DNA from: Microglena sp. YARC
Lineage: Eukaryota > Chlorophyta > Chlorophyceae > Chlamydomonadales > Chlamydomonadaceae
Direction: 5' to 3'
NCBI GenBank assembly: GCA_022414725.1
Contig: CM039464.1
Coordinates: 9,541,527 to 9,605,526, forward strand
Length of the DNA stretch: 64,000 bases
Position numbers and translations under genes: made by a program. This document shows, piece after piece, positions 238 through 56,890 of this stretch. How positions within the stretch are numbered: position 1 is the stretch's first letter; the number at the start of each line of letters is the position of its first letter. The notes under the pieces are model-generated. The model had not been told where the DNA came from, ran no database searches, and saw only the letters and a list, made by a program, of their open reading frames with translations.

Positions 238-705
238 GCCAGCCACCAACCACCAACTACCACCAACCACCACCTACCACCTACCACCAACTACCAACTA
301 CCACCAACCGCCACCTACCACCACCACCTACCACCAACCACCAACAACTACCACCTACCACCATACACCACTACCTACCACCTACCACCAACAACTACCA
401 CCAATCACCACCTACCGCGTACAACCACTATCTACCACCACCAACTACCACCAACCACCACATACCAACTACCTGAACTACCTGAACTACCACATATCTG
501 AACTACCACCTACCATCAACCACCACCTACCATCAACCACCACCTACCACCACCAACTACCACCAACCACCACATACCACCTACCTGAACTACCTGAACC
601 ACCACATATCTGAACCTGCCACCTACCATCAACCACCACCTACCACCAACCACCAACCACCACCTCCCCCAACTACCACCTATCTGAAGTGTTACAAAAA
701 CCTCA
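238..705. repeat. ACC-rich simple repeat (CCACCAACTACCACC type)
   Basis: Degenerate repeats of CCACCAACTAC and CCACCTACCA fill about 470 bases. Two long open frames here read only as Thr/Tyr/His/Pro low complexity and are artefacts. The tract is C-rich and purine-poor and lies upstream of the acceptor array of the first visible hexosaminidase exon. Confidence 0.85.
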
Positions 706-1028
706 ACCTTTCACTGCTCTAGGCTCATCCATGCAGCTTACAACAGTGACATGAAGTGTAACAAAGTGTAACAAAAACCTCAACCTGTCACTGATCTAGG
801 CTCATCCATGCAGCTTACGACAGGGACATGCAGTGTAATGAAGTGTAACAATACCTCAACCTCTCACTGCTCTAGGCTCATCCATGCAGCTTACGACAGG
901 GACATGCAGTGTAATAAATTGTAACAATACCTCAACCTCTCACTGCTCTAGACTCATCCATGCAGCTTACAACAGTGACATGAAGTGTAACAAAGTGTAA
1001 CAAAAACCTCAACCTTTCACTGCTCTAG
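700..1028 (+). repeat. Exon-edge array: four copies of the acceptor and 5' edge of hexosaminidase exon 1029-1149
   Basis: The unit is about 77 bp, with decoy acceptors ending at 722, 799, 875 and 951, and the real one at 1028. Each unit carries a pyrimidine tract, an AG and a degenerate copy of the first 30 or so exon bases (GGCTCATCCATGCAGCTTAC against exon GGCTCATTCATGCTGCTTAC). The spacing is regular at 76-77 bp. Only the last copy continues into the conserved GH20 sequence. Confidence 0.85.
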
Positions 1029-18661
<17,633 letters not shown>

Positions 18662-18856: not shown

Positions 18857-19108
<252 letters not shown>

Positions 19109-19345: not shown

Positions 19346-19504
19346 AACTAATTTTGAAAACAGTATAAAGGATGCATATGTAGTGTGGAATTTGGCTACC
19401 CCTGGACTGTATCAACATTATCTGGACCTGTACCAACATAAGCTGATCCAACAGACGTGATCTTTTTTATTCCCACAACCAACCACTTGCCCCACCGAGT
19501 CCCA

Positions 19505-19702: not shown

Positions 19703-19867
19703 CCACCACTTGCCCCACCGTGTCCCATTTTGCAGGTGTCCTGGGGCTTTCCTGCTGGACCTATTGGGCCTGGGCACTGCCCTTCCGAAATGAATGAGAA
19801 TTGAGACGCTGGCTGTGATATACTGGTGCACTTCTGAGTTCTGACATGGTTGCTTTGCTTACCTATA

Positions 19868-40000: not shown

Positions 40001-43000
40001 ATCGCCACTCGCACACCCACCACCATCCCTGCAGACAATGTTGGTGACAATGTTGGAGACATCGCTGGTATGGGTGCTGATCACCACTATCACCATCACC
40101 ACCATCACCATTACCATCACCACCATCTCCATCACCACCATCACCACCACCGCCACCACCCATCGCCACTCGCACACCCACCACCATCCCTGCAGACAAT
40201 GTTGGTGACAATGTTGGAGACATCGCTGGTATTGGTGCTGATCACCACTATCACCATCACCACCATCACCATTACCATCACCACCATCTCCATCACCACC
40301 ATCACCATCACCACCACCGCCACCACCCATCGCCACTCGCACACCCACCACCATCCCTGCAGACAATGTTGGTGACAATGTTGGAGACATCCCTGGTATG
40401 GGTGCTGATCACCACTATCACCATCACCACCATCACCATTACCATCACCACCATCTCCATCACCACCATCACCATCATCACCACCGCCACCACCCATCGC
40501 CACTCGCACAACCACCACCATCCCTGCAGACAATGTTGGTGACAATGTTGGAGACATCGCTGGTATGGGTGCTGATCACCACTATCACCATCACCACCAT
40601 CACCATTACCATCACCACCATCTCCATCACCACCATCACCACCACCGCCACCACCCATCGCCACTCGCACACCCACCACCATCCCTGCAGACAATGTTGG
40701 TGACAATGTTGGAGACATCGCTGGTATGGGTGCTGATCACCACTATCACCATCACCACCATCACCATTACCATCACCACCATCTCCATCACCATCATCAC
40801 CATCACCACCACCGCCACCACCCATCGCCACTCGCACACCCACCACCATCCCTGCAGACAATGTCGGTGACAATGTTGGAGACATCGCTGGCATGGGTGC
40901 TGATCTCTTTGGCTCTTTTGCGGAATCCACTTGTGCCGCTCTTGTCATCTCAGCTGTGTCATCACTTGGAACCTCGCATGACGTGGTGGGCATGTCCTTC
41001 CCTCTGCTCATCAGGTACCTTATGACATGATGATCATAAAACTACTTTTAAAAAGTGATAAAAACCTTGCATGATGTGGTGGGCATGTCCTTCCCTCTGC
41101 TCATCAGGTACCTTGTGACATGATGATCACAAAAACATTATTTAAATTATGATAAAATACCTCGCATGACGAGGGGGGCATGTCCTTCCCTCTGCTTATC
41201 AGGTACCTCATGACATCATTATCATACAAACGATATTTAAATAATGATAAAATACCTTGGATGACGAGGTGGGCATGTCCTTCCCTCTGCTTATCAGGTA
41301 CCTCATGACATCATTATCATACAAACGATATTTAAATAATGATAAAATACCTTGGATGACGTGGTGGGCTTGTCCATCCCTCTGCTTTTCTGGTACCTCA
41401 TGGCATCATTATCATACAAACGATATTTAAATACTGATAAAATACCTCGGATGACGTGGTGGGCTTGTCCATCCCTCAGCTTTTCTGGTACCTCATGGCA
41501 TCAATATCATAACAACGATATTTAAATACTGATAAAATACCTCGGATGACGTGGTGGGCATGTCCTTCCCTCCATCATCTGAGCGCTAAGCGTTCAGCAA
41601 CACTATGTAGATACTATGCAAATACTGTGCAGATATTTTGCAGATACTAAGCGATCGGTGTATACTATGCAGATACTATGCAGATACTATGCAGATACTA
41701 TGCAGATACTATGCGATCGGTCGATACTATGGGATACTATGCATAGCGGTCGGTTCGATCGAGGCCGGAGTATTGATATTTCGGTATCATTGTGTGCATC
41801 TTCACCACCATCATGTCCTCAGCCCCACACCAGCACCAGCACCACCACTATGCGCACCATCTGATTTCGACTCCTCCTCTTCACAGTGCTGCCGGTATCA
41901 TTGTTTGCATCTTCACCACCATCGCGTCCTCACCCCCACAGCACCACCACCACTATGCGCACCACCTGATTTTGACTCCACCTCCTCACAGAGCTGCTGG
42001 TATCATTGTTTGCATCTCCACCACCATCTTGCCCTCACCCCCACACCACCACCACCACCATCACCACCACCGCCACCACCACCACTATGCTCACCACCTG
42101 GTATCGACTCCTGAACTCTGCTCCCAATGCCCGCAGCGCTGCTGGTATTATTATTTATATCTTCACCTCCAACACGTCCTCACCACCACCACCACCACCA
42201 CCACCACCACCACCACCACCACCACCATCATCACCACCACCATCATCACCACCACCACCACCACCATCACCACCACCACCACCACCACCCACCACCCACC
42301 CACCACCACCACCACCACCACCACCACCACCACCATCACCTGAAGTCGACTCCACTCCCGATGCCGGTATCATTGTCTGCATCTTCACCACCTTCATCGC
42401 CACCATCGCGTCCTCACCACCAAAATTTCCTCCCCACAAACACCTCCGCACCACCAACACGTCCTCACCAACACTTTGCCCACCACCTGATGTCAACTCT
42501 ACTCCCGCAGTGCTGCCGGTATCATGGTTTGCATCTTCACCACCTTCATCGCCACCGACTTGAAGCCTGCCCGTGTGATTGCTGATATTGAGCACTCTCT
42601 GAAGATGCAGCTCATCATTTCCACTGTCCTCATGACTCCAGTGAGTGCCTTGGGTGGTGTGCTGGGGAAGGAGTTATGAGGAGTGTGGTGGGGATGGATG
42701 TTGTGGTGTGGGTGGGAAGGATTTTTGTGTGGTGTAGTAGGACTGATGGAGTCCAAGGCTGCTTGTGTGATTGTCGATATTGACCATTATCTGAAGATGC
42801 AGCTCATCATCTCCACTGTCCTCATGACTCCAGTGAGTGGCTTGGGTGGTTTGCTGGGGAATGATGTTGTGGAGAAGGTTGGTGTGGGTGGGAAGGATTG
42901 TTGAGTGGTGTAGTAGGGCTGATGGACTGCTATGCTGCTTGTGTGATTGTCGATATTGAGTACTATCTGAAGATGTAGCTCATCATCTCCACTGTCCTCA

Positions 43001-46000
43001 TGACTCAAGTGAGTGACTTGGGTGGTGAGTTGTAGAAGGACTAGGGAAATAAAAGTGTGATGTGTTGGGGAGGGAGTGTGTTGGGGAAGGGTGGTGTGTT
43101 GGGGAAGGAGTGTTGAGTGTTGTGGTGGAGAAGGATGTTGTCGTGGGGAAGGATGTCATGGTGTGGTGCTGACTGATTGTTGAGTGGTGTAGTAGGACTG
43201 ATGGACTGATATGCTGCTTGTGTGACTGTCGATATTGAGCACTCTGAAGATGCAGCTCATCATCTCCACTGTCCTCATGACTCCGGTGAGTGGCTTGAAA
43301 GGAGTGATGAGTGGTGGGGTGATGTGGTGTGGTGTAGAAGGAAGTGGGGTGTAGGTGTGGGGTGATGAAGGTTGTGTGGTGTAGAAGGAAGTGGGGTGTA
43401 GGTGTGGGGTGATGAAAGTGGTGTAGTGTAGAAGGAAGTGGGGTGTAGGTGTGGGGTGATGAAGGTGGTGTGGTGTAGAAGGATGTGGTGTGGGGTAGAA
43501 AGAAGTGGGTGTAGGTGTGGGGTGATGAAGGTGGTGTGGTGTAGAAGGATGTGGTGTGGCGTGGTGGGTTGATGTGGGTTGTAGAGGGAGTAATGAGGAG
43601 TGTGGTGGGGAAGGAATGTTCAAGCTGACGTAGTGGGACATTCGCTGGTATTGAGTCATGATTTTGTGGGGTTGACTAACATGTCAGCTGTATAGCGAAT
43701 ATCCTAAACCAGTGTAAGATCCATAACACAGGAGATTTAAAGCAGCACTTCTGCCAACAACGGGAAGAAGCCGGCAACAAGCCAACGAGGGATTCGTCCG
43801 CGAGTTCCAGTTCTTGGTTCTTTGTGTTCTTGCTATGAAATGAAATGAAATTGTTACATCCGTGTAATACATTCACTCACAGGACGTGAAGTTAAGGACA
43901 CCATAGCCTAAGCTGGAGCTAGCTATAGTCACCGTGTGTTCTTGCTATGTATTCTTATCTGCCACCCTGCGAGTGAAGGGTTCAGTGGTTGGGACATTTT
44001 TTGTGTGTGTTGTGAAAGGAATTTCTTGTTGTGTTGTGGAAGGAATTTCTTGTTGTGTTGTGATGTGTTGTGAAAGGAATTTCTTGTTGTTTTGTGATGT
44101 GTTGTGTTGTGAAAGGAATTTCACCCCAGGAGGTGGGTCTCCCGATACAAACCAGCAACACCAAGGATTCAGTATGAATGGCGCTGCCACTCCTATAAAA
44201 GAGTAGGCGCACTTAGTTAAATGCACTTGGGACATGCAATTTCTTGTGACTTGGGTGTGTTGACTGCTATTCATGCCTTTATTAATAACTATATTTGATT
44301 GATCTGATCATTTGTGGTGCCCAAGCGTACTGATGTACCTGTGTACATGCATCTATTAATGTACCTCTGTACCTGCAGCTGTACATGTAGATATTAATAT
44401 TCCTCTGTACCTGTAGATATTGATGTACCTCAGTACATGCAGATATTGATGTACCAATGTACATGCAGATATTGGTGTACCTCTGTACATGCAGCTGTAC
44501 TTGTACCTCTGTACCTGTAGATATTGATGTACCTGCGTACCTGCATCTATTGGTGTACCTCTGTACATGTACCTATGTATCTGTGGATATTGATGTACCT
44601 GCGTACCTGCATTTATTGGTGTACCTCTGCACATGCAGCTCTTGATGTACCTGCGTACCTGCAGCTGTGCATGTACCTCTGTACCTGCATCTATTGGTGT
44701 ATCCCTGTACCTGCAATTATATATGTACATCTGTACATGTAGATATTGGTGTACCTCTGTACATGCAGCTGTACATGTACCTCTGTACATGCATCTATTG
44801 ATGTACCTCTGTACATGCAGTTGTACATGTACCTGTCTACCTGCATCTATTGGCGTACCTCTGTACCTGCAGCTGTAGATGCACCTCTACCTGTAGATAT
44901 TGATGTACCTGCATACCTGCATCTATTGGTGTACCTCTGTACATGCAGCTGTACATGTACCTCTGTATCTGCAGATATTGATGTACCTGCATACCTGCAT
45001 CTATTGGTGTACCTCTGCACATGCAGCTGTACATGTACCTCTGTACCTGCATCTATTGATGTACCTCTGTACATGCAGTTGTACATGTACCTGTCTACCT
45101 GCATCTATTGGCGTAGCTCTGTACCTGCAGCTGTAGATGTACCTCTACCTGTAGATATTGATGTACCTGTGTACTTGCAGCTACTGATTTATTTATGAAC
45201 CCCCATGCAGGCCACCTACTACGTTGCTATCAGCTCTCTCCCGGCCACCTTCGAGCTGACTGTCCCAGGTGATGTTCCTGGTGAGCCCTTCATTACCAAG
45301 GTCAGTACCAGGGATTTTGTTGTCAAATCTGGAAATAGTTTTTTCTAGCTTTCTTTTATTTTACAAAATCCGGGTAATACTCCAATGCACAAAAACTGAA
45401 GGAATGTAATGATAACGCCTGGTGGGGCTTGGTGTTAAGGGAACCCGTCGTACACGGGTGGGGAGCGGACCCTACCTCAACTGGACAATCTACCATTGCG
45501 GTTGACAACGACCTGCAACGCCAAGAGCAACCGAAGGAGGAGTCGATCCCCCGACTCTTCATCCTCAAGCAATCAGGTCTACCAGTAGACCATTATATAT
45601 CACTGAAAGGGGCTTAAAAAAAAAAAGACTACAATCAATATTTAAGAATAGCTGAGGTACTGACGAGGGATTTGTTTTTGCTATGTATATCGATCGCTAC
45701 TTTTGACCCCGTTTTGGCCCAAATTGCCGCTAGAAAAAACCCACTGTCAGATTCGGTGAGTTGTCCCAGGTGATGTTCCTGGTGAGCCCTTCATCACCAA
45801 GGTCGGTACCAGGGATGTTTTTTTCAAACCTGAAAGTGGGATTTTTCTAGCTTAACGGTTTTACATCTCCTCCAGGGACAGCGTTCTTGTAGCTTTTTAT
45901 AGCTTTTCGGGGTCAAAACGTTGTTGACTAGCGGCAACTTGGGCCAAAACGGGGTCAAAACGTTGTTGACTAGCGGTAACTTGGGCCAAAACGGGGTTAA

Positions 46001-49000
46001 AACGTTGTTGACTAGCGGCAACTTGGGCCAAAACGGGGTCAAAACGTTGTTGACTAGCGGCAACTTGGGCCAAAACGGGGTCAAAACGTTGTTGACTAGC
46101 GGCAACTTGGGCCAAAACGGGGTCAAAACGTTGTTGACTAGCGGCAACTTGGGCCATAACGGGGTTAAAACGTTGTTGAATAGCGGCAACTTGAGCCAAA
46201 AGGGGGTCAAAAGTAGCTATCGTTGTCAATAACAAAAACAAATTCCTTGTCAGTACCTCAGCTATTCTTAAATATGGATTAAAGCCCTTCAGTTTTTGTG
46301 TCTTGGGAGTCTGTATAGTCAGCATATCTATGAAGTCAGCACAAGTCAGCATAAAATCAGGGAAGTCAGCATGAGTCAGCATACGTCAGCATAAATTCAG
46401 CACTAGTCAGCATTAAATCAGCACACATCAGCACAAGTCAGTATGACTCGGCAGAAAGTCAGCACAAGTCAGCATGAGTCAGCGTGAAGAACTATCTAGA
46501 TAGTAAGGTAATGATAACGCCTGGTGGGGCGTGGTGTTAAGGGAACCCGTCGTACGCGGGCAGGGAACGGTCTACTACCTTGACTGGACAAGCTACCATC
46601 GCGGTTGACAACGACCTGCAACGCTAAGGGCGGCCGTAGGAGGAGTCGATTCCCCGACCCTTCTTCGTTTCAGCGATTTGGTGTACCACTAGACCAATAT
46701 ATATCACTGAAACGGGCTAACTATCTAGATATTCAACCCTAACATTTGAGTTGGAACCTTGCCCCGCACACACAAGCTCTTTTCTTACCCACTCAAGCTC
46801 TTGCCTCAACAACACCCCTCCTTATCTACCTGCTCACAGACTGTGGCCAACTGGCACATGTCTCACCCACACTGGCACATGTCTAACCCACCTTGCCTCA
46901 CCCACACTGGCACTTGTCTCACCCACACTGGCACATGTCTAACCCACCTTGCCTCAACCACACAAGTCCTTGCCTCAACCACACTCTCCCTGCTCACAGA
47001 CCGTGGCCAACTGGCACAGGCCTCACCCACACTGGCACTTGTCTCACCCACACTGGCACATGTCTAACCCACCTTGCCTCACCCACACAAGCCCTTGCCT
47101 CAACCACACTCTCCCTGCTCACAGACCGTGGCCAACTGGCACATGCCTCATCCACACTGGCACTTGTCTCACCCACACTGGCACATGTCTAACCCACCTT
47201 GCCTCACCCACACAAGCCCTTGCCTCAACCACACTCTCCCTGCTCACAGACCGTGGCCAACTGGCACATGTTCATCACTGTAGCCGCTGGACTGTGGGGC
47301 GGACTGCTCATTGGTCTGCAGACCGAGTACTTCACCTCGAACAGGTATGAAGTGTTGAGCAACTCTACTCTAGTGGGCCCTTTAGGGATGAATTGGAGGC
47401 CTTTGGTTTCAAGTGGGTGTCAAAGTAAGGAAAGCTGGGTATTTTCTTTAAGAAAGATGGAAATACTAGCTTTGAGGTTTATTACCTTTAGTCCTTTCTT
47501 CCCGGGGTTGGTCCTGCCACAATACAAATGGTTTTATGGGGTCACTAAAGGGGCAACTGTTGCCTGAAATGAGGTAAACTACTCTCGTTCAACGGCTGGT
47601 CCCTTAGTAGAGCAGCACTACATAGTTTATTGTAATGCTTTAATTTAGCTCATAATGAGTTCAATGATATAATGGCCGGCTTAAGTTATGATTTAAATTG
47701 TTGGATTGAATGGTTTAATTTAAGGATTTAATCAATATTACACACCAGGTACAAGCAGCACTAAATAATTGAATGTACTGCTTTCATGATGATTCCAATG
47801 ATATAATTGTATTTTTTAATCAGGTTGTCTCGTCTTTCATTATGGTTTAAATGATATATTTTAATATATGATTTATTTTAATCATTTAATTAATGGAACA
47901 CTCAACATCACCGTAGCCACTGGACTGTCGGGCGGACTGCTCATTGGTCTGCAGACAGAGTACTTCACCTATTATTGGTAATTTTATAAAATTAATAAAA
48001 ACCTGTTTTTTCAGGTATATTTGTTGTATGTTGAAAATCTACGTGAGAGCAGACGACGATTTGTGTTATCGCTATTCTTCTCCAATTCACCAGTCACCCT
48101 CACCAATCAACTGCTGCTACGGACAGCGCGTAGAATGCACCCGACACCTTTTTCTTCCTTGTGCTATTTCAACAGCATAGACGCCACAGATTGTTTTTGA
48201 TTTCAAGCAGATTTGTGAGCGGTAGAATGGCAAACTGAGACCGAGAATAACAGGTACGAGCAACACTAAATGATTTAATTTAAAGCTAATGGTGATTTCA
48301 TGCTGACGATGATTTAATTTAGTGAATGGAACCTAACAAGCAAAACATCAAATGATTTATTGTATTTAATTAATTGATGTAACACTCAACATGTATGTCA
48401 CCAAAGCCACAGGATTGCGGAGTGGACTGCCCATTAGTCCGCAGACCAAGTACTTCTCCTCAAATATGTACGGGCAACACTCTGATGTTTTGATGAGGTG
48501 TTGATATAATGATATACTAATAATATAATAAAAACATACAACAATAAACATATGATGCTAATGTAATATGTACGGGCAACACTCTGATGTTTTGATGATG
48601 TGTTGATATAATGATATAATAGTAATATAATAAAAATGTGCAGTAAATATATAATGCTAATGTAATTATAAAAAAGGATATAAGCATCGCCGCAAGATCA
48701 AGGGGATGTGAAAGTGAAACAGTGCTCGTCAACTAGTTAGGATGCTTGTAGCAGCTGCTAGTTAGTGTGCGTATGCTGCTACTCGCAGCTACTACTTAGG
48801 CTAGTAAGGATGCTACTAGCAGTAACTACTTGGGCTACTTAAGTTGCTACTAGCAACTCCTTATCAACTAAAGTTGAAGGCAATAATACAAGCTCATTTG
48901 TATGAACACAAGCAGAAGGCTTGCCACTGCTACACCCAACCGTGGTACGGGGGAAACACACACCTCACCAGCCCAAACCCTGAAGAGGCCCACAAGGCTG

Positions 49001-52000
49001 CTAGATGGGCTCTAGGCAGTGCCACACATGCTCACACCCTTGATGCCCCCACGTGCACCATCCTCTTGGTCCCACACAAACCCACCTATGCCCATAACAC
49101 CCAATCAGTGACAATGGATGAGGGCAAAGCAACAAGTCCTAGGCAGCGTCACAAGCGACGCGGAAATTGGCGGCGAGTGTTGGCAACGGAACAGCCGCAC
49201 GTCGGCCGCACAAACCAACTAACAGACGACGGGGTGACCCTGGGGCTCCCGCCCCCCAGAAGGGGGGGCTTCGCCAACAAGGCGTCTGGTTCATTGTTAC
49301 TAGGGATGTCCATATCACCCTAGTCCCTAAGATATCGGGCGATATATCATACTGTATATCGTACGATGCATCATATAGGGAGCGGCAGGTAGCCCTAATC
49401 GCGGCCAAAAGTAGGACTAATAGTCCTAATAGCTGGGTTAAACCTAATAGCTGGGAGCTAACTTAGCCAAATGTAGCCATGGAAAATCTTACCATGAGAA
49501 ACGGTAGGTCGCGACAGGCTCCGGGTTGCCTTGCTGTATGAACAGAATCACACTTAGCGAATGCGAAGTTCGGATTCCTTGTGAAAAGCTGTGCAAAATC
49601 GGTACCAAATAGCAACTAAGAGGACAAGTTACCGACATTAATAGCTCAAAACCAGCTATGCGAGCACGGCAGGTAGCGCTAGGTAGCGTGAGTAGCGCTA
49701 GGTAGAGCTACCAGCTACCCCCCCCCCCCCCCCCCTGCCGCTCCCTAATCATATGATATCGTCGATATATCCTAAGACATAGCACTCTAGTCCCTAAGAT
49801 TATCGGGTGATACATCACACTGTATATCGTACGAAACATCATATGATATCTTCGATATATCCTACGATGTATCTAAACGATATCACGCTGTTGGTGCTGC
49901 TACCCTGTTGTGTACTTCTCCCCCTATCCTGTGCTACAGATTCTAGCGCTGTTGATTACCATAATAGCACCTGGATGAAATGAATTTGGATGTTGAATGA
50001 AATGAATTCGGCTGAAGTGATTGAAAAGTTGGCGATATACAACATTGTCAACATAGGGGAGCCAAAGGTGAAGGCGAGCGCCTCAAGATTGAAATGGGGT
50101 TGGGATGGGATTCAAACGAGATTCTGTTGGTGCTACCACCTCTCACCCCCTGCCCTCCTTATTCCCCCCCACCAGGTACCAGCCCGAGCAGGAATATGCT
50201 TCCCCCTATCCTGTGCTATTGGTTCTGGTGCTGTTGGTGCTGCTACCTCACCCCCTCCCCCCTATTCCTGCCATGTTGGTGCTGCTACCGCTTACCCCCT
50301 CCCCCTGTCCTCCCTATCCCCACCCCCCCCCCCCCCCCCCCCCCACAACACACACACACACACACACACTAGGTACCAGCCCGAGCAGGAGGTTGCTGAT
50401 GCCTGCCGTACTGGTGCTGCTTACCCCTCACCCCCTCCCCCTTCCTACCCTGTTGGTGCTGCTACAGCTTACCCCCTCCCCCTATCCTCCCTATCCCCCC
50501 CCACACCAGGTACCAGCCCGAGCAGGAGGTTGCTGATGCCTGCCGTACTGGTGCTGCTACCCCTCACCCCCTCTCCCTATCCTACCCTGTTGGCGCTGCT
50601 ACAGCTTACCCCTCCCCTATCCTCCCTATCCCCCCCACACCAGGTACCAGCCCGAGCAGGAGGTTGCTGATGCCTGCCGTACTGGTGCTGCTACCCCTCA
50701 CCCCCTCCCCCTTTCCTACCCTGTTGGTGCTGCTACAGCTTACCCCCTCCCCTATCCTCCTATCCCCCCCCCACACCAGGTACCAGCCCGAGCAGGAGAT
50801 TGCTGATGCCTGCCGTACTGGTGCTGCTACCCCTCACCCCCTCCCCCTATCCTACCCTGTTGGTGCTGCTACAGCTTACCCCCTCCCCCTATCCTCCCTA
50901 TCCCCCCCCCCACACACACCAGGTACCAGCCCGAGCAGGAGATTGCTGATGCCTGCCGTACTGGTGCTGCTACCCCTCCCCCTCCCCCTTCCTACCCTGT
51001 TGGTGCTGCTACAGCTTACCCCCTCCCCCTATCCTCCCTATCCCCCCCCCCCCCACACCAGGTACCAGCCCGAGCAGGAGATTGCTGATGCCTGCCGTAC
51101 TGGTGCTGCTACCCCTCCCCCCTCCCCCTTCCTACCCTGTTGGCGCTGCTACAGCTTACCCCCTCCCCCTATCCTCCCTATCCCCCCCACACCAGGTACC
51201 AGCCCGAGCAGGAGATTGCTGATGCCTGCCGTACTGGTGCTGCTACCCCTCCCCCCCTCCCCCTTTCCTACCCTGTTGGTGCTGCTACAGCTTACCCCCC
51301 TCCCCCTATCCTCCCTATCCCCCCCACACACCAGGTACCAGCCCGTGCAGGAGGTTGCTGATGCCTGCCGTACTGGTGCTGCGACGGACATCATCTTTGG
51401 CCTTGCCCTTGGGTACAAGTCCACCATCATCCCGACCATGATCATGTGTGTGACTATCTACGTCAGCAACTCCCTGGCTGGCATGTACGGCATTGCATGC
51501 GCCGCCCTGGGCATGTTGGGCACCCTTGCCACCGGTAAGCATGGCCGCCTGCCTACACTGTGCTGCGTGTGGTTTATATGGGCTAGGGGGTGCGGGGGAG
51601 GGGAAGTGGCCCACCATCATCCTGACCATGATCATGTGTGTGACTATCTACGTCAGCAACTCCCTGGCTGGCATGTACGGCATTTCATGTGCCGCCCTGT
51701 GCATGTTGAGCACCTTGCAGCTGGTAAGCATGGCCGCCTGCCTACACTGTTCATGTTTGGATGCTACGTGTGGGTTGTATGGGGTAGGGGGTGTGGGGGA
51801 GGGGAAGGGGAAGGCGCCCACCATCATCACGATCATGATCATGTGCGTCACTATCGATGTGAGCAACTCCCTGGCTGGCATGTATGGCGTTTCATGCGCC
51901 GCCCTGGATATGTTGGACACCCTTACAACAGGTGAGCATGGCCGTCTGCCTGCACTGTGTTTGGATGCTACGTGTGGGTTGTATGCGGTAGGGGGCGTGG

Positions 52001-55000
52001 GGGAGGGGATGGGGCCCACCATCATCCCGACCATGATCATGTGCATCACTATCTACGTCAGCAACTCTCTGCCTGGTGTGTACGTTTAGCTTTTCATGCG
52101 CCGCCCTGGGCATGTTAAGCACCCTCGCCGCAGTTAAGCATGGCCGGTCTGCCTACCCTGTGTGTGTTTGTGTATGTCGAGGGTGTGGTGAAGATGTACA
52201 TATAGCAAGCTCTACGTCAGCAACTCGCTGGCTAGCATGTACGGTATTGCATGCGCCGCCCTGGGCATGTTGGGCACCCTTGCCACCGGTAAGCATGGCC
52301 GCCTGCCTACTCTGTACATGTTTGTATGCTACGTGTGGTCTGTATGGGGTAGGGAGTGTGGGGGAGAGGGAAGGGAAGGGGTCCACCATCATACCGGTCA
52401 TGATCCTGTGCGTCACCATCAATGTGAGCAGCTCCCTGGCCGGCATGTAGCAGGATAGCCTGCTAATAGCCTAACTTGACATCTCGAGTCCGTCTTTTCG
52501 ATATGTCCCTATAGCCTAGCTCCGGCTTCACGGCATGTGCGGCATTTCATGCGCCACCCTGGGCATGTTGGGAACCCTTGCCACAGGTAAGCATGGCCGT
52601 CTACCTGCACTGTGTTTGGATGCTATATGTGGGTTGTATGGGGTAGGGAGCGTGGGGGAGGGGAAGGGGAAGGCGCCCACCATCATCACGATCATGATCA
52701 TGTGCGACACTATCGATGTGAGCAACTCCCTAACTGGCATGTAAGGCGTTTCATGTGCCGCCCTGGATATGTTGGGCACCCTTGCCACAGGTAAGCATGG
52801 CCGCCAGCCTACTCTGTACACGTTTGGATGCTACGTGTGGGTTGTATGGGGTAGGGAGTGTGGGGGAGGGAAGGCACCCACCATCATCAGGATCATGATC
52901 ATGTGCGACACTATCGATGTGAGCAATTCGCTGGCTGGCATGTATGGCGACTCATGCGCCACCCTGGGCATGTTGGGTACCCTTGCCACAGGTAAGCATG
53001 GCCGTCTGCCTGCACTGTGTTTGGATGCTATATGTGGGTTGTATGGGGTAGGAGGCGTGGGGGAGGGGAAGGGGCCCACCCTCATCCCGACCATGATCAT
53101 GTGTGACTATCTACGTCAGCAACTCCCTGGCTGGCATGTACGGCATTTCATGCACTGCCCTGGGTATGTTGGGCACCCTCGCCACTGGCAAGCTAGTCCC
53201 GCCTGCCTGCACTATATTTAGAGGAGATGCTGTTTGTGTGTAGGGGTGGAGGGGGGTAATGTTGTGTTGGCCCACTTGCCCGCGCTAGATGTGTTTGTTT
53301 GAGGGTGCGGAGGGGATGGTGAGGATGTGTATGGAGCTGGGTGGTGGTGATGGGCATGATATGTAGGCCAAGTTACTTACCTGACCCCACAGATTTAGGA
53401 AATGATACTTGACTGACCCCATCCCGTTCCTGACACCCAGGCCTGGCCATAGATGCCTGAGATTTAGGCCATGTTGCTGTACTGACCCCATCCCTTTCTT
53501 GATCCCATCCCGCTCTCTCCATCCCGTTCCTCACACCCTTTCACTGACACCCAGGTCTTGCCATCGATGCCTGAGATTTAGGCCATGTTGCTTTACTGTC
53601 CCCATCACTTTCTTGATCCCATCCTGCTCTCTCCATCCCGTTCCTGACCCTCTCCCGCTGGCACCCAGGCCTGGCCATCGATGACTGATTTTAGGCCATA
53701 TTGCTGTACTGACCCCATCCTGCTGACCCCATCCCGTTCCTCTGACCCCATCCCATTATTTACATTTTCTCGCTGACACCCAGGTCTGGCCATCGATGAC
53801 TGAGATTTAGGCCATGTTGCTTTACTGACCCCATCCCTTTCTTGATCCCATCCTGCTCTCTCCATCCCGTTCCTCACACCCTCCCACTGACACCCAGGCC
53901 TGGCCATAGATGCCTGAGATTTAGGCCATGTTGCTTTACTGACCCCATCCCTTTCTTGATCCCATCCTGCTGACTCCATCCTGTTCCTCACATGCTCCCG
54001 CTGACACCCAGGTCTGGCCATCGATGCCTGCGATTTAGGCCATGTTGTTTGCCTGACCCCATCCCATTCCTCACACCCTCCTACTAACACCCAGGTCTGG
54101 CCATAGATGCCTGAGATTTAGGCCATGTTGCTTTACTGACCCCATCCCTTTCTTGATCCCATCCCGTTCCTCACACCTTCCACTGACACCCAGGTCTGGC
54201 CATTGATGCCTGAGATTTAGGCCATGTTGCTTTACTGACCCCATCCCGTTCTTGATCCCATTTAGCTCTTTCCATCCCGTTCCTCACCCCCTCCCGCTGA
54301 CACCCAGGCCTGGCCATCGATGCTTCAGATTTAGGCCATGTTTTTGCCTGACCCCGTCCTGTTCCTGATCCCATCCTGTTCCTGACCCCATCCCGCTGAC
54401 CCCATCCCATTCCTAACACCCTCCTGCTGACACCCAGGTTTGGCCATCGATGCTTACGGTCCCATTTCTGACAACGCCGGGGGCATTGCCGAGATGGCTG
54501 GCATGGGTGATGAAGTGAGGGAGCGAACCGACGCCCTGGATGCTGCTGGCAACACTACCGCCGCCATCGGCAAGGGCTTTGCCATCGGATCTGCTGCTCT
54601 AGTGTCTCTCGCCTTGTTTGGAGCTTACATCATTCGCGCCAAGATTGATCTGGTGAGTTGATTCATGTGTTGGACGCATCACACAGAGACATGCACATAC
54701 AGAGACATGCACAGTAACTGAAGGAAATAGCCGGCGCAAGGTTTAATAAGAGCCCCATGCGCGATCCCCTCCTTAAGGCCACGGTCGAACCACGGCCGTA
54801 CACCTTCCGCTTTAATAACTACTTGCCCCCTTCTTCACAACTTACTACCCGTTTTCCAATATAATCATCCACCCCTCATGTCTCTAAAATGGCTAAGTCG
54901 AAGGGACATTGTGTCTCTTGTGACACTGTGACATAATGCATACACACATCACGCAACACACACATTCCTCACGAACACTTTCACTTGCACACACACATCC

Positions 55001-55152
55001 CCCCGCAGGTCCACGCCTCCATCCTTGACCCCAAGGTCTTAGACAGCCTCTTTTTTTCGGCTCCATGCTCCCCTACTGGTTTAGCGCCATGACCATGAAG
55101 TCTGTAGGCAAGGCATCCCTCACCAACTATCCCTCCCTCTCTCTCTCTCTCC

Positions 55153-55206
<54 letters not shown>

Positions 55207-56662
55207 CTCACCAACACTCTCATACACATGCACATCCCTCACCAATACACACACATCCCTCACCAACACTCAACACACTCACACACACATCTCTCTCACA
55301 CACACACACCCCACCCCCGCAGGTCCACGCCTCCATCCTGGACCCCAAGGTCTTCGCTGGTCTGCTCTTTGGCTCCATGCTCCCCTACTGGTTCAGCGCC
55401 ATGACCATGAAGTCCGTAGGCAAGGCCGCCCTTTCCATGGTCGAGGAAGTCCGTCGCCAATTCAACACCATCCCCGGCCTCATGGAAGGCACCGCTCGCC
55501 CCGACTACAAGCGTTGTGTTGAAATCTCCACCCAAGCTTCCTTATCCGAGATGCGCCCTCCGGGTGCCCTGGTCATGCTCACTCCCATTGTGGTCGGTAC
55601 ACTGTTCGGCACGCAGGCCCTAGCTGGCACCTTGGCAGGCGCTCTGGTGAGCGGAGTGCAGCTGGCCATTTCTATGTCCAACACTGGGGGCGCTTGGGAT
55701 AACGCTAAGAAGTATATTGAGGTAAGTGCTTGGGATAACGCTAGGAAGTACAACGAGGGGAGTGGGGATATTACTAAGAAGTACATTGAGGTAAGTGCTT
55801 CGGATGACGCTGAGAAGTGCAATGAGGGGAGTGGGTATATTAATTAGAAGTACATTCAGGTGAGTGCTTGGGGTAACACTGAGAAGTACAATGAGGGGAG
55901 TGGGGATATTGCTAAGAAATATATTCAGGTGAGCACTTGGGATAACACTGAGAAGTGCAATGAGGGGAGTGGGGATATTGCCTGCCTGGAAGGTGAGGGA
56001 GCAGGATTAGGGGAGCAAGACTTTGGAGACGGATGACCTGGAGCCGGCCAAATCAGATATGCATGAGCGCGTGGGTAACATTTTGCACCCAACACTAACG
56101 CAACCACAACAAAACGATACAATCACATATGGCTGTACAAAACAAACACGAACATCGTCCCTATCCCATCCCCACCCGTAGCCTCCTGAGCACACCCTCC
56201 CCACCCCCCACCTGCTCAGGCTGGCAACACGGAGCACGCCGGCAAGCTGGGTGGCAAGGGCTCCGACTGCCACACGGATTTGGTGACAGCACACCTGCAC
56301 ACCCAACCAACACTGACGCCTAAACAGCCACATCAACACCCAACAACCACACCTAACCATCTACAACAAAACGCTGACAAGGAAATAACCACATACGACC
56401 GATCACCGCCTGATCACACCCTCTCCACCCAACTGCTCAGGCTGGCAACACGGAGCATGCCCGTGAGCTCGGTGGCAAGGGCTCCGACTGCCACACAGCT
56501 GCTGTCATTGGCGACACCGTGGGTGACCCCCTGAAGGACACCTCAGGACCCTCTCTCAACATTCTCATCAAGCTCATGGCTGTCGAGTCCTTGGTCTTTG
56601 CCCCCTTCTTCTACGCATGTGCCGGTGGGCAGGGCCTCATCTTCAAATACCTCGGTGTCTAA
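32860..56662 (+). CDS. Vacuolar H+-translocating inorganic pyrophosphatase (type I, K+-dependent), 14 exons
   Basis: This membrane pump couples hydrolysis of cytosolic pyrophosphate to proton transport into the vacuole or acidocalcisome. Fourteen exons join without a frame error into 2394 bases (797 residues; plant enzymes have about 765). Exon 1 gives the first membrane helix, exon 2 an acidic Gly-rich loop, and from [14 protein letters not shown] on the protein aligns along its whole length. Motifs in order: [38 protein letters not shown] (pyrophosphate and Mg binding), [90 protein letters not shown]. Ala in GNTTAA marks the K+-dependent type, where Lys marks K+-independent enzymes. It ends GLIFKYLGV. 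Intron phases are 2,0,0,1,0,1,2,0,0,2,1,0,0. Start ATG 32860 opens a hydrophobic helix and phases correctly into exon 2. Nine tenths of the gene is repeat-filled intron. Confidence 0.96.
33215..33416 (+). CDS. Pyrophosphatase exon 2 (N-terminal loop)
   Basis: The acceptor CCCCAG ends at 33214. The first base completes Arg, then [20 protein letters not shown] and a Gly/Glu-rich loop follow, ending EARGNE. Donor GTGAGA is at 33417. The loop is longer than in land plants. Confidence 0.85.
33840..33975. repeat. CCACCA simple repeat in pyrophosphatase intron 2
   Basis: CACCACCACCATCACC-type tract that forms the pyrimidine-rich region before the exon 3 acceptor. Confidence 0.85.
34014..34109 (+). 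CDS. Pyrophosphatase exon 3
   Basis: The acceptor CTGCGCAG ends at 34013. It encodes [20 protein letters not shown] to HMGVFM (32 residues). Donor GTGCGG is at 34110, the same rare GTGCG form as intron 1. Confidence 0.93.
34560..34943 (+). repeat. Exon-edge array: about three diverged copies of the exon 4 5' edge
   Basis: Words such as TAATGCATGTCATCATGCA, then GTGCATGTGC, recur at about 34641, 34721 and 34815, against the real edge TGCAGATCATCATGGCCGTC and CATGTGCACC. C-rich filler and a C homopolymer at 34561-34580 lie between. Confidence 0.7.
34944..35169 (+). CDS. Pyrophosphatase exon 4
   Basis: The acceptor TACTGCAG ends at 34943. It encodes [20 protein letters not shown] to [14 protein letters not shown]. 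Donor GTACGT is at 35170, phase 1, chosen over nearby GTGTGG because it restores the conserved [10 protein letters not shown] junction. Two copies of the 3' edge (CCACCATGTGTGG followed by GGCGTA or TGCGTA) lie at about 35245 and 35340. Confidence 0.94.
35262..35345 (+). mobile_element. Single copy of the TACGCCTT...GAGGCGTGAGG repeat
   Basis: ACATGGTACGCCTTCTTACG, AGGCATGAGGTTGAGGGGGG and CACTAGGGCCAACCACCA match the array at 28.3-29.6 kb. It lies between the two 3'-edge copies of exon 4. Confidence 0.7.
35530..35760. repeat. AAATAAAACAATAC repeat
   Basis: Degenerate units of ACACAAATAAAACAATACTG with CCATTGTGTGACAC words. Confidence 0.85.
35963..36048 (+). CDS. Pyrophosphatase exon 5
   Basis: The acceptor CTTCCAG ends at 35962. 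It encodes (A)[19 protein letters not shown] to IQGFKQ. Donor GTAATC is at 36049, phase 0. Confidence 0.95.
36049..36900 (+). repeat. Exon-edge array: six copies of the 3' edge of exon 5 with progressive donor decay
   Basis: Copies end at about 36168, 36297, 36488, 36623, 36740 and 36854. Each repeats GGTTTTGGTCTCCTCAACCT through CAAGGTTTCAAGCAG. The first two bases after the edge read GT, GC, GT, GT, GA, GA. Copies are linked by GATTTGAATTTGAATTTG and TGTTTCTTGCTGCT. One TACGCCTT-type dispersed repeat is inserted at 36325-36400. Confidence 0.95.
36985..37165. repeat. C homopolymers and CCCCA tracts before exon 6
   Basis: Runs of 20-30 C at 37002-37030 and 37111-37132, with CCACCTCC words. 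They act as the polypyrimidine region of the exon 6 acceptor. Confidence 0.9.
37169..37361 (+). CDS. Pyrophosphatase exon 6 (substrate-binding loop)
   Basis: The acceptor CCATGCAG ends at 37168. It encodes [20 protein letters not shown], then [18 protein letters not shown] and [11 protein letters not shown]. Donor GTGAGT is at 37362, phase 1. DVGADLVGK is the signature pyrophosphate-binding loop. Confidence 0.97.
37362..37640. repeat. TTCCCTTTGTACTGGTTGCC minisatellite
   Basis: About nine units of 20-30 bp of the type GTACTGGTTGCCTTCCCTGG fill the start of intron 6. A dispersed CGTCTGCGACGCAGGA repeat follows at 37640-37710. Confidence 0.85.
37790..40857 (+). repeat. Exon-edge array: about twenty copies of the exon 7 acceptor and [15 protein letters not shown] edge
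   Basis: Each unit (about 150-168 bp) has CCATCCCTGCAG or CCATCCCCGCAG, then about 50 exon-like bases (ACAATGTTGGTGACAATGTT and GGAGACATCGCTGGTATGGG, to GTGCTGATC), then CACCATCACC filler. Starts lie near 37848, 37887, 38025, 38205, 38356, 38506, 38655, 38806, 38960, 39113, 39266, 39411, 39581, 39732, 39882, 40035, 40195, 40365, 40530 and 40690, with the real exon at 40858. The most distant copies are the most diverged. Long His- or Gly/Asp/Val-rich frames on both strands come from this array. Confidence 0.96.
40858..41014 (+). CDS. Pyrophosphatase exon 7 (DNVGDNVGD motif)
   Basis: The acceptor CCTGCAG ends at 40857. With the leftover G it encodes [20 protein letters not shown] to [10 protein letters not shown], phase 2 at donor GTACCT (41015). 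It is the only copy in the array that continues into [12 protein letters not shown]. Confidence 0.97.
41015..41590 (+). repeat. Exon-edge array: about six copies of the 3' edge of exon 7
   Basis: Units of about 94 bp with GATGACGTGGTGGGCATGTC, CTTCCCTCTGCTCATCAG and GTACCTxxTGACATxAT. Later units change GCATGTCC to GCTTGTCC and TCATCAGG to TTTTCTGG, so donors are lost with distance. Confidence 0.93.
41600..41760. repeat. ATACTATGCAG minisatellite
   Basis: About ten units of 11-12 bp, ending in a GCGATCGGT-rich patch. Confidence 0.9.
41765..42510 (+). repeat. Exon-edge array: about five copies of the exon 8 5' edge, with (CCA)n filler
   Basis: Copies (GTGCTGCCGGTATCATTGTT, then TGCATCTTCACCACC) occur near 41779, 41888, 41993, 42136 and 42360. 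The real exon is at 42511. A pure (CCA)n tract lies at 42184-42335. Confidence 0.92.
42511..42640 (+). CDS. Pyrophosphatase exon 8
   Basis: The acceptor CTCCCGCAG ends at 42510. The first base completes Ser, then [20 protein letters not shown] to [10 protein letters not shown]. Donor GTGAGT is at 42641, phase 0. Confidence 0.95.
42641..43300 (+). repeat. Exon-edge array: three copies of the 3' edge of exon 8
   Basis: Copies end near 42830, 43008 and 43285. Each carries GTGTGATTGTCGATATTGA, GATGCAGCTCATCATCTCC and CTCATGACTCCAGTGAGTG, about 85 exon bases plus a consensus GTGAGTG donor. GGTGTGGTGGGGAAGG-type filler lies between. Confidence 0.94.
43300..43640. repeat. GTGGTGTAGAAGGAAGTGGG minisatellite
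   Basis: About five units of roughly 55 bp with GGGTGTAGGTGTGGGGTGAT and GAAGGTGGTGTGGTGTAGAA. Confidence 0.9.
43980..44125. repeat. GTGTTGTGAAAGGAATTTCTT repeat
   Basis: Four to five units of 20-40 bp with GGAATTTCTTGTTGTGTTGTG. Confidence 0.85.
44300..45190. repeat. GTACCTCTGTACATGCAGCT array
   Basis: About 20 units of 40-48 bp combining GTACCTCTGTACATGCAGCTG, TACATGTACCTCTGTACCTG and ATATTGATGTACC. A higher-order period of about 155 bp is visible between 44,760 and 45,130. It lies directly ahead of the exon 9 acceptor. Confidence 0.93.
45211..45300 (+). CDS. Pyrophosphatase exon 9
   Basis: The acceptor CCATGCAG ends at 45210. It encodes [20 protein letters not shown] to EPFITK. Donor GTCAGT is at 45301, phase 0. 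This segment varies between families. Confidence 0.9.
45387..46312. mobile_element. Foldback element with 42-bp tandem core, interrupted by a SINE
   Basis: The left flank (CACAAAAACTGAAG at about 45389, then 45635-45735 with AATATTTAAGAATAGCTGAG) is the inverse of the right flank (46195-46310). The centre (about 45905-46215) is seven to eight units of ACGTTGTTGACTAGCGGCAA / CTTGGGCCAAAACGGGGT. The inverse flank at 46280 lacks the SINE. A copy of the exon 9 3' edge (CAGGTGATGTTCCTGGTGAG to CACCAAGGTCGGTACCAGGG) sits at 45765-45815, inside the element. Confidence 0.75.
45404..45617 (-). mobile_element. tRNA-derived SINE, full length
   Basis: On the minus strand it begins near CAGTGATATATAATGGTCTA with A-box-like TGGTCTACTGGTAGACC, then GAGTCGGGGGATCGACTCC resembling a tRNA T-arm/B-box. 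The remainder matches the 46503 copy. An A-run at 45616-45626 adjoins it. Confidence 0.88.
46310..46488. repeat. GTCAGCACAAGTCAGCAT repeat
   Basis: Short degenerate units of AAGTCAGCATGAGTCAGCAT. Confidence 0.88.
46503..46718 (-). mobile_element. tRNA-derived SINE, full length with 13-bp target-site duplication
   Basis: Flanked by perfect AACTATCTAGATA at 46490-46502 and 46719-46731. The minus strand starts AGCCCGTTTCAGTGATATAT, then TTGGTCTAGTGGTACACC (A box, like tRNA-Asp/Glu heads), then GGGTCGGGGAATCGACTCC (B-box-like), followed by a 150-base body ending GGCGTTATCATTACC. Reference copy for the family; others lie at 6822, 8292, 26576, 29015 and 45404, with a fragment near 18695. Confidence 0.93.
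46750..47249 (+). repeat. Exon-edge array: three copies of the exon 10 5' edge
   Basis: Copies start after CTGCTCACAG at 46840, 47000 and 47125, with the real exon at 47250. Each has ACCGTGGCCAACTGGCACA, then CCTCACCCACACTGGCAC filler. The last two units are exactly 125 bp. Confidence 0.95.
47250..47344 (+). CDS. Pyrophosphatase exon 10
   Basis: The acceptor TGCTCACAG ends at 47249. It encodes [20 protein letters not shown] to TEYFTSN plus two bases. Donor GTATGA is at 47345, phase 2. Diverged 3'-edge copies lie at about 47908-47975 and 48388-48475. Confidence 0.95.
47345..48700. repeat. Pyrophosphatase intron 10, first part: AT-rich with two decayed exon 10 edge copies
   Basis: ATTTAAT-rich DNA. 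Copies of the exon edge: GGACTGTCGGGCGGACTGCT with GTCTGCAGACAGAGTACTTC at 47922-47975, and GGAGTGGACTGCCCATTAGT with CCAAGTACTTCTCCTC at 48418-48465. A 90-bp duplication with ATGTACGGGCAACACTCTGA lies at 48465-48650. Confidence 0.75.
49130..49290 (+). mobile_element. Dispersed 0.2-kb family copy, internally shortened
   Basis: Starts CAACAAGTCCTAGGCAGCGT and ends CCAGAAGGGGGGGCTTCGCC. The middle is shorter than in the 27806 copy. Confidence 0.78.
49310..49880. repeat. Duplicated GATATATCGTACGAT palindrome-rich unit flanking a TIR element
   Basis: ACTGTATATCGTACGATGCA at 49351 and ACTGTATATCGTACGAAACA at 49819 start two copies of a unit rich in ATCATATGATATC. The first copy is split by the inserted element at 49376-49747. 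Confidence 0.75.
49376..49747. mobile_element. 372-bp non-autonomous TIR element (MITE-like)
   Basis: Terminal inverted repeats TAGGGAGCGGCAGG and CCTGCCGCTCCCTA. The perfect 6-bp direct repeat ATCATA flanks it (49370-49375 and 49748-49753), and the uninterrupted site is visible in the neighbouring duplicate. Sub-terminal GGTAGC words are repeated at both ends. A C run adjoins the right terminus. No transposase. Confidence 0.85.
50145..51334 (+). repeat. Exon-edge array: eight copies of the exon 11 5' edge
   Basis: Units of about 136-143 bp. Exon-like starts lie near 50175, 50372, 50508, 50644, 50779, 50922, 51061 and 51196, with the real exon at 51335. Each has GTACCAGCCCGAGCAGGAG, TTGCTGATGCCTGCCGTACT and GGTGCTGCTACC, then CCCCTCCCCCTATCC filler. 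All copies read GAG where the exon has GTG. Confidence 0.96.
51335..51534 (+). CDS. Pyrophosphatase exon 11
   Basis: The acceptor ACACCAG ends at 51334. The first base completes Arg, then [20 protein letters not shown] to [10 protein letters not shown] plus one base. Donor GTAAGC is at 51535, phase 1. Confidence 0.97.
51535..53220 (+). repeat. Exon-edge array: eight copies of the 3' edge of exon 11 with donor
   Basis: Units of about 200 bp, each with up to 115 exon bases (CCGACCATGATCATGTG, GTCAGCAACTCCCTGGCTGG, GCCGCCCTGGGCATGTTGGG) and a donor. Edges near 51728, 51932, 52136, 52290, 52588, 52791, 52993 and 53187 are followed by GTAAGC, GTGAGC, TTAAGC (broken), GTAAGC, GTAAGC, GTAAGC, GTAAGC and GCAAGC. 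Positions 52446-52515 contain a 70-base segment also found in the gene's 3' flank. Confidence 0.95.
53425..54437 (+). repeat. Exon-edge array: nine copies of the exon 12 5' edge
   Basis: Units of about 114 bp: GACACCCAG acceptor, GTCTGGCCATCGATGCCTGA (exon edge), GATTTAGGCCATGTTGCTTT, then CTGACCCCATCCC filler. Copies start near 53441, 53554, 53669, 53783, 53898, 54011, 54094, 54194 and 54308, with the real exon at 54438. Only the first 18 or so exon bases are repeated. Confidence 0.94.
54438..54652 (+). CDS. Pyrophosphatase exon 12 ([10 protein letters not shown])
   Basis: The acceptor CACCCAG ends at 54437. It encodes (G)[19 protein letters not shown] to RAKIDL and includes [19 protein letters not shown]. 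Donor GTGAGT is at 54653, phase 0. The Ala after GNTTA classifies the enzyme as K+-dependent. Confidence 0.97.
54653..55322 (+). repeat. Intron 12: one long damaged copy of the exon 13 5' edge, (CT)n and (CA)n
   Basis: A 125-base copy of the exon 13 start (55009-55135: GTCCACGCCTCCATCCTTGA to GTCTGTAGGCAAGGC) contains substitutions and frame-disrupting indels (CTTAGACAGCC, T run). A CT microsatellite at 55137-55202 and CACACA-rich DNA follow up to the real acceptor. Confidence 0.93.
55323..55721 (+). CDS. Pyrophosphatase exon 13
   Basis: The acceptor CCCGCAG ends at 55322. At 133 codons it is the largest exon: [53 protein letters not shown], then [15 protein letters not shown]. Donor GTAAGT is at 55722, phase 0. 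Confidence 0.98.
55722..56000 (+). repeat. Exon-edge array: four copies of the 3' edge of exon 13
   Basis: Units of about 68 bp with GCTTGGGATAACGCTAGGAA, GTACATTGAGGTAAGTGCTT and CAATGAGGGGAGTGGGGATA. Edge copies (TACATTGAG or TATATTCAG) are followed by GTAAGT, GTGAGT and GTGAGC. Confidence 0.93.
56001..56440 (+). repeat. Intron 13, second part: one copy of the exon 14 5' edge
   Basis: At 56213-56278, acceptor CTGCTCAG is followed by GCTGGCAACACGGAGCACGC to CCGACTGCCACACG, about 66 exon bases. It then departs from the exon. The real exon starts at 56441 behind an identical acceptor. Confidence 0.93.
56441..56662 (+). CDS. Pyrophosphatase exon 14 (C-terminus)
   Basis: The acceptor CTGCTCAG ends at 56440. 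It encodes [54 protein letters not shown] and GLIFKYLGV, stopping at TAA 56660-56662. Confidence 0.98.
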
Positions 56663-56890
56663 CTGCCATGCGCGCGCTGGTGGGGAGTGAAGCAGGATAG
56701 CCTGCTACTAGCCTAACTTGACATCTCGAGACAGCCTTTTCGATATGTCCCATCAGTCTAGTTCTGTCACAGGGAGGGCCTTATCTTCAAATACCTCCTG
56801 GAGACTTCCTTATCGATATGTCCCATAGGCTTAGTTCTGTCATAGGGAGGGCCTCATCTTCAAATACCTCGGTGTCGAAGTGCCATGCCA
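56663..56890 (+). repeat. Diverged duplicates of the pyrophosphatase 3' end
   Basis: AGGGAGGGCCTTATCTTCAA (56774) and AGGGAGGGCCTCATCTTCAA (56846) with ATACCTC repeat the end of exon 14. CTTxxCGATATGTCCCAT and TAGTTCTGTCA words alternate with them. The segment AGCAGGATAGCCTGCTACTA at 56691 also occurs in intron 11 at 52450. Confidence 0.88.

Follow-up and report, generated by a model that had tools for sequence, protein, structure and literature searches.

Why do introns of three unrelated genes, lying side by side in a green alga, contain tandem copies of the edge of the neighbouring exon together with its splice site, and is there anything special about the exon edge itself? The question is raised by a stretch of 64,000 nucleotides from Microglena sp. 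YARC (G000:C3:9541527-9605526, referred to below as the window), which belongs to a genome of 568 Mb in 2390 contigs. An earlier note on this DNA had described such arrays at 17 or more exon borders and had proposed them as a general rule of the exon edge.

The window, its genes and the exon-edge arrays

Most of the window is occupied by three plus-strand genes, encoding a GH20 hexosaminidase, a right-handed beta-helix protein and a membrane pyrophosphatase (mPPase). The mPPase model, built from the sequence, comprises 14 exons and 797 aa and is open throughout, as is the beta-helix model (8 exons, 459 aa; Pfam match PF13229). The best match of the mPPase is the EukProt protein P0001 (99% identity over aligned columns, 88% in the local alignment), and it is otherwise closest to chlorophycean proteins, which makes the host a chlamydomonadalean green alga. 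The hexosaminidase gene (Pfam match PF00728) has seven exons inside the window and, according to tblastn, starts about 9 kb upstream of it. Its reading frame is broken within exon 4, which may mean that the gene is a pseudogene or that the model or the assembly is in error; this exon (8676-9416) contains a coding tandem repeat of 75 bp (25 aa), with the break near 9260. All 26 modelled introns are of the GT-AG type, but GT-AG guided the choice of the models.

The window also contains repeats of other kinds. A GH20 intron shows, at 5500-6800, inverted arms (by eye, about 5500-5790 and 6510-6800) around a seven-copy tandem array of 101 bp, and the EukProt GH20 model treats part of this region as coding. 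By eye, a dispersed SINE-like repeat starting GGTAATGATAACGCCTGGTGGGGCGTGGTG is present in both orientations near 6830, 8290, 26560, 29020, 45410 and 46510, and a dispersed element with microsatellite tails (ACAG, ATAC, CATG) and the motif TACAGTCCAGGGGTAGGCCAAATAGGC at about 7980-8260, 14680-15000, 18940-19120, 19600-20400 and 59010. On the 3′ side of the mPPase gene, a plus-strand retrotransposon (59500-63970) with an RVT_1 reverse transcriptase match in Pfam is free of tandem arrays; by eye it is of the non-LTR type, with an endonuclease-like part. An Rfam search of the window gave no family at the gathering score.

At least one copy of the exon edge plus splice site was found in the adjoining intron at 28 of the 53 junctions of the three genes (local score of at least 34, a count made without a shuffle control; Table 1), where the earlier note had counted at least 17 borders. 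The 28 arrays comprise 108 copies, with the junction mapped in 107; once the 18-bp GH20 array is counted unit by unit, the mapped copies are 112. Arrays hold from 1 to 20 copies, in line with the original estimate, and the largest is formed by the 20 acceptor copies before mPPase exon 7. Chance matching was controlled by shuffling. Within 1 kb, a copy that scores at least 40 and beats each of 20 shuffles was found for 27 of the 53 40-mers centred on junctions; when the search was confined to the junction's own intron, 27 of the 52 junctions bounded by an intron have a copy that beats each of 30 shuffles.

The shortest unit measures 18 bp (GH20, 1137-1321) and the longest about 500 bp (mPPase exon 9 donor), with units of about 150 bp at mPPase exon 7; the earlier note gave 18-200 bp. 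Its figure of 12-125 bases for the exon pieces is about right, the exonic part measuring 12 nt in the 18-bp GH20 array and 23-114 nt in the 21 edge-anchored arrays measured. The copies sit on the intron side of the shared exon edge; inside the window this placement is a consequence of the search region, and the same placement was obtained from family searches elsewhere in the genome, which bears out the description of the intact exon as lying at the exon-proximal end. Any tendency of exon-proximal copies to be more exon-like is weak (mean rho -0.21, negative in 9 of 14 arrays). Outside the window, on its upstream side, GH20 has four further acceptor-side copies in front of the exon at -324..-136. 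Several 5′ junctions had no copy when their own introns were searched against shuffles (mPPase introns 1-4 and beta-helix introns 1-2). The introns also contain many tandem arrays without exon sequence, so that the description of these introns as built from exon edges is only partly right.

Table 1. Exon-edge copies and arrays of the three genes, in window positions
Feature	Position	Strand	Remark
GH20 donor-side copy, 3′ edge of exon at -324..-136	97..225	+	tblastn of P0122, 81% over 43 aa
GH20 acceptor-side array before exon 1029-1149	687..1028	+	4 copies of acceptor plus exon 5′ edge, 76-bp unit
GH20 exon	1029..1149	+	
GH20 donor-side array	1150..1321	+	18-bp unit, TATGATGCTCAG followed by donor GTACAT; 9 extra donors, all in frame and open
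GH20 acceptor-side array	1656..2284	+	4 copies, up to 84 nt of exon 5′ edge
GH20 exon	2285..2434	+	
GH20 donor-side array	2435..3330	+	8 copies
GH20 acceptor copies before exon 8676-9416	8265..8675	+	2 copies, very short exonic edge
GH20 donor-side copies, edge of exon 8676-9416	9945..10060	+	2 copies
GH20 donor-side copy, edge of exon 15053-15123	15124..15310	+	further decayed copies to about 15830 by eye
GH20 acceptor-side copy before last exon 19736-19804	19490..19735	+	1 copy
Beta-helix acceptor-side array before exon 24408-24614	23881..24407	+	132-bp unit
Beta-helix donor-side copy, edge of exon 24408-24614	24708..24745	+	
Beta-helix acceptor-side copy, edge of exon 25737-25961	25600..25640	+	
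Beta-helix donor-side array	25962..26160	+	2 copies, 84-bp unit
Beta-helix acceptor-side copies before exon 27579-27647	27262..27578	+	2 copies
Beta-helix acceptor-side array before exon 29843-30094	29634..29842	+	2 copies, unit about 104 bp
Beta-helix donor-side copy	30095..30190	+	
Beta-helix stop-codon edge copy	31004..31037	+	stop at 30907-30909; not a splice site
mPPase donor-side array after exon 35963-36048	36049..36860	+	5 copies
mPPase acceptor-side array before exon 40858-41014	37840..40857	+	20 copies of acceptor plus DNVGDNVGD exon edge
mPPase donor-side array	41015..41560	+	5 copies, unit about 95 bp
mPPase acceptor-side copies before exon 42511-42640	41886..42400	+	3 copies, junction mapped in 2
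mPPase donor-side array	42641..43300	+	3 copies; first (42743-42877) coding in EukProt P0001
mPPase donor-side copy, edge of exon 45211-45300	45760..45815	+	
mPPase acceptor-side copies before exon 47250-47344	46839..47249	+	3 copies
mPPase acceptor-side array before exon 51335-51534	50175..51334	+	8 copies
mPPase donor-side array	51535..53200	+	8 copies, exonic part up to 114 nt
mPPase acceptor-side array before exon 54438-54652	53440..54437	+	9 copies
mPPase acceptor-side copy, edge of exon 55323-55721	55008..55322	+	
mPPase donor-side array	55722..55940	+	3 copies, 69-bp unit
mPPase acceptor-side copy before last exon 56441-56662	56219..56440	+	
mPPase stop-codon edge copy	56845..56879	+	not a splice site

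Exon borders, intronic background and the rest of the genome

The frequency of copies at exon edges acquires its meaning by comparison with the introns at large. Tandem copies within 1 kb were found for 370 of 600 random intronic 40-mers (62%), for 27 of 53 junction 40-mers and for 108 of 400 exon-interior 40-mers, and the duplication rate at junctions is 0.8 to 1.3 times the intronic one. When 30-mers are arranged by distance, those with a tandem copy make up a share of 0.43-0.65 within introns (0.43 at both +15 and +30), the junction itself reaches 0.49, and exonic positions give 0.44 at -15 and 0.16 at -120; this profile has no clear peak at the exon-intron border. A one-sided null matched within the intron gave 41 observed junctions vs 32.9 expected at threshold 34 (P 0.018), an excess of 1.25-1.33-fold over thresholds 34-46 (P 0.013-0.018) and 25 vs 19.4 at threshold 52 (1.29-fold, P 0.05), in all cases with junctions that are not independent within one gene. 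This modest excess may come from slower divergence of the constrained exon copy, or from a weak hot spot; copies are only slightly more similar to the exon than to each other (identity 0.87 vs 0.85, with the former higher in 14 of 24 arrays).

Copies were also found just downstream of 2 of the 4 stop-codon edges tested, and at none of the 3 start codons tested. Splice sites and splicing are therefore unnecessary for the pattern. A hot spot at the exon edge was rejected, given the lack of a clear border peak and a matched null exceeded only about 1.3-fold. The general exon-edge rule of the earlier note is thus not sustained, since junctions behave much like the intronic background and two of the four stop codons tested have copies as well.

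The pattern is present well beyond the window. In six chaperonin genes on C1, C2, C3 and C5, copies were found at 15 of 28 junctions, belonging to 14 modelled introns (of 28 pairs of neighbouring hits, 14 gave the introns used, 2 fell out for low score, 5 had no model, 6 were passed over because of profile gaps or overlaps, and in 1 the hits were adjacent). When all 48 modelled introns are pooled, a copy is found at 42 of 96 junctions, with acceptor-side copies in 23 introns and donor-side copies in 19, and the repeat content of an intron correlates with the copies at its own junctions (Spearman 0.61, p 4e-6). Family searches, in which a match counted as a copy if it reached less than 0.75 of the main match's length, placed 12 of 12 partial dynein copies and 8 of 8 partial kinesin copies on the intron side, sharing one exon edge; the kinesin count covers the 18 rows that form pairs. 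If any shorter match is accepted, 6 of 13 dynein matches are as predicted, 6 share both edges (copy against copy) and 1 neither, while for kinesin 7 of 10 are as predicted, 2 share both edges and 1 is against. Among three overlapping chaperonin pairs, one has the predicted placement and two share neither edge, and of the nine pairs obtained with the mPPase query (seven from the window gene, two from a third paralog), three are placed as predicted, two have both edges in common and four have none. Two dynein heavy-chain loci (G000:C1:29814573-29815400 and G000:C1:61038333-61039040) show acceptor-side arrays at a common domain residue, 314, with an exonic part of about 31-36 aa; they may owe this to shared ancestry or to a duplication-prone sequence.

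The repeat load is uneven over the genome. In twenty 10-kb stretches of C1-C3, chosen at roughly even places and sampled irrespective of gene content, the tandem-copy share goes from 0 to 0.92, with a mean of 0.36. A compact mPPase paralog with low-repeat introns (C3:7.52 Mb) has copies at none of its 16 junctions, and its eight introns sum to 4.9 kb, where their counterparts in the window gene take up 13.1 kb. The third mPPase paralog (G000:C1:11391471-11461819) spans 70 kb, with partial exon copies near 11427 kb. From repeat-poor DNA in the sampled and flanking stretches, 20 of 68 open frames were searched, and 7 had a Pfam match, including copia-type fragments and family-B DNA polymerase. 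One repeat-poor stretch (L007, G000:C3:14500001-14510000) carries long family-B DNA polymerase open frames (PF00136, PF03104) and is possibly a viral or mobile insertion.

Origin of the copies and choice of the splice site

The reading that we favour, with a probability of roughly 0.75, is that the arrays are splice-neutral, junction-spanning tandem duplications that drift. Slippage or unequal exchange would frequently create tandem duplications of about 20-500 bp in the introns, many of which would expand into minisatellites. Where a duplication spans a border, the intact exon and its site would stay and the spare copy of edge plus site would fall on the intron side, so that neither the mRNA nor the protein need change. 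The spare copy would then be kept or lost like other intronic repeats, decaying as neutral sequence, and the arrays would be those members of the general intronic repeat population that overlap an exon edge. Only the exon-proximal site would be used, probably by way of a spliceosome that pairs sites across the exon; a decoy acceptor would have no donor behind it, and a decoy donor no acceptor before it. The geometry and frequency of the arrays, the background rate of duplication in introns, the copies at stop codons and the absence of special constraint on the copied sites are all matters of direct observation. Several results count against this reading, namely the junction excess left by the matched null, the closeness of decoy scores to those of real sites, the scarcity of tandem copies in intergenic DNA and ahead of start codons, and the chaperonin and mPPase pairs that share neither edge. 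The earlier note had itself proposed that duplications leaving one intact exon-proximal site are tolerated and accumulate, and this part of it gains support, on several chromosomes.

A less probable, tentative alternative is that transcription or splicing itself provokes duplications, through R-loops or polymerase collisions, and makes transcribed or spliced borders a hot spot; the restriction of the duplications to gene bodies and the small excess at junctions would both follow. Over the kilobase that precedes the start codon the tandem-copy share is 0.03 (3 genes); after the start (9 genes) it climbs from 0.13 in the first 500 bp to 0.36 at 1-2 kb and 0.51 at 3-5 kb, distances in the chaperonins being measured from the first exon match and not from the start codon. 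Beyond the stop it drops to zero in all three window genes, from distances of 250, 500 and 750 bp on, and in GH20 it is at most 0.2 over the first 5 kb, including a first intron of 4.4 kb. Only 5 of 300 intergenic points, in stretches picked by eye, have a tandem copy. Repeats are thus not found in all non-coding DNA, and neutrality alone is insufficient to explain where duplications arise. Several observations fit a hot spot poorly, however: the share is 0.23 at 1-2 kb before the start (2 genes, in stretches that enter the preceding gene), two of the nine genes, at the chaperonin loci L026 and L031, are repeat-rich from the first exon match onward, and two mPPase genes of the same genome differ strongly. 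Moreover, the intergenic stretches are short or bear a retrotransposon, and could be empty through constraint in the former case and youth or turnover in the latter, which makes the link with transcription no more than a possibility. A more specific and somewhat more doubtful version holds that duplication is linked to transcription within the gene body, from at least 1 kb past the start to the end of the transcript, with the exon-proximal site picked by cross-exon pairing.

It is improbable that the copies are functional, as alternative or backup splice sites under selection. In support of such a role, the splice dinucleotide is kept in 110 of 112 copies (GC counted as donor), and the decoys, which according to the earlier note may shape splicing, score near the real sites. 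With a small position matrix trained on copy-free sites (29 donors, 25 acceptors), decoy donors average 5.96 vs 7.26 for real ones (p 0.10; random GT -0.63) and decoy acceptors 7.72 vs 9.12 (p 0.10; random AG -3.47), and decoys equal or exceed the score of their own real site in 34 of 55 cases on the donor side and 39 of 86 on the acceptor side. Moreover, all nine copies of the 18-bp GH20 array are in frame, and the EukProt GH20 protein P0122 includes one extra VQYDAQ unit of it (1150-1167). Against this, no extra conservation of the copied dinucleotides over their neighbours was seen, the values for donor GT (0.84/0.90) and acceptor AG (0.95/0.93) being within the range of the neighbouring columns. 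If used, 97 of the 112 copies would lead to a frame shift, a stop or a lost site; an open in-frame extension would result from 15, a count in which the reading phase at GH20 exon 4 (2 copies) is uncertain and 9 come from the 18-bp array. The copies at stop-codon edges also speak against a role in splicing. Finally, the copies read as coding in P0001 and P0122 are probably prediction errors; the P0001 protein lacks the conserved DNVGDNVGD region.

If the copies are indeed drifting duplications, the tolerance of up to 20 upstream acceptors needs a selection rule beyond site score. Acceptor decoys lie before the real site and donor decoys after it, so that neither a first-come nor a last-come choice explains both; pairing of sites across the exon would account for the choice at either side. 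None of 89 copies spans 90% or more of its exon, a comparison of low power given units mostly shorter than exons. Volvox and Chlamydomonas are described, in an excerpt of one source, as intron-definition organisms on account of their short introns (PMC4378016).

An origin of the introns themselves by tandem duplication of an exonic AGGT segment (the Rogers/Hellsten model) is highly unlikely here. Tandem duplication is an established source of introns, according to partial text of PMC3443670, and the window mPPase has 13 introns vs 8 in the compact paralog, with exon lengths that sum exactly where the extra introns lie. The model predicts that the intron start resembles the downstream exon and the intron end the upstream exon, but over 48 introns both similarities equal the null (10.85 vs 10.90 and 10.90 vs 10.81), with none above its 99th percentile, in a comparison that old, diverged cases would escape. 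In addition, match boundaries of the third mPPase paralog (residues 168, 196 and 312) suggest that three of the five extra introns are shared, which makes loss from the compact gene no less likely than gain. Lastly, chance similarity of low-complexity introns or an assembly artefact can be set aside although many introns contain simple repeats, since the copies of the two shuffle-controlled counts score above all shuffles of their own flanks or intron, differ from each other and so are not collapsed duplicates, and show the same geometry on several chromosomes.

Relation to known repeats and significance

The arrays are an extreme case of a known kind, the intronic tandem repeats of green algae, with nearly half of the checked junctions embedded in them. 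According to excerpts of a survey of Chlamydomonas reinhardtii and Volvox carteri, tandem repeats are densest in introns and, among genic regions, least dense in 5′ UTRs; they rise with distance from genes in intergenic DNA, are enriched near intron-exon junctions and are frequent in 3′ UTRs, reaching 42 kb per Mb in C. reinhardtii (PMC3887541). The repeat-rich introns are common to these algae and to Microglena, whereas coding sequence comes second in repeat density there (PMC3887541, excerpts) but not here. The 42 kb per Mb and the 62% of intronic points found here are different measures, and the available passages of that survey make no mention of units that join an exon edge to a splice site (PMC3887541).

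Repeats that meet splice sites are known from other systems. A minisatellite supplying several splice donors in an interferon-induced transcript, reportedly of a human gene, is said to have been described by Turri et al. 1995, to judge by the title. A repeated splice donor is common to both cases; a single locus is concerned there, and 42 of 96 junctions here, on the donor and the acceptor side. In human segmental-duplication genes, variable internal tandem repeats occur at exon-intron boundaries and, with RNA support, modify exons or make new introns, whereas the copies here lie within existing introns and would mostly break the protein (PMC2812944, in part). Intron gain by tandem genomic duplication, as presented in the accessible portion of PMC3443670, also involves a duplicated splice site, but the cross-similarity that it predicts is absent here. 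According to part of PMC10809524, tandem repeats such as polyubiquitin contain dual-specific AGGT sites, able to act as donor as well as acceptor, while each unit here has one kind of site and one exon edge. Among the matches listed (open-licence texts, by title or start of the abstract), none was found to present arrays that join exon edge and splice site as a general property of any genome.

From a practical point of view, the EukProt models of two window genes read copies as coding, and care is therefore needed when such genomes are annotated. Should the restriction of duplications to gene bodies prove general, it would point to a mutation process linked to transcription; if that version is true, the arrays would be at once a record of transcription-coupled mutation and a natural competition assay between copied splice sites. 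Several real splice sites face up to 20 near copies with flanking sequence in common and often an equal score. The arrays thus constitute a natural experiment on how the spliceosome chooses among like sites, in a lineage thought to rely on intron definition.
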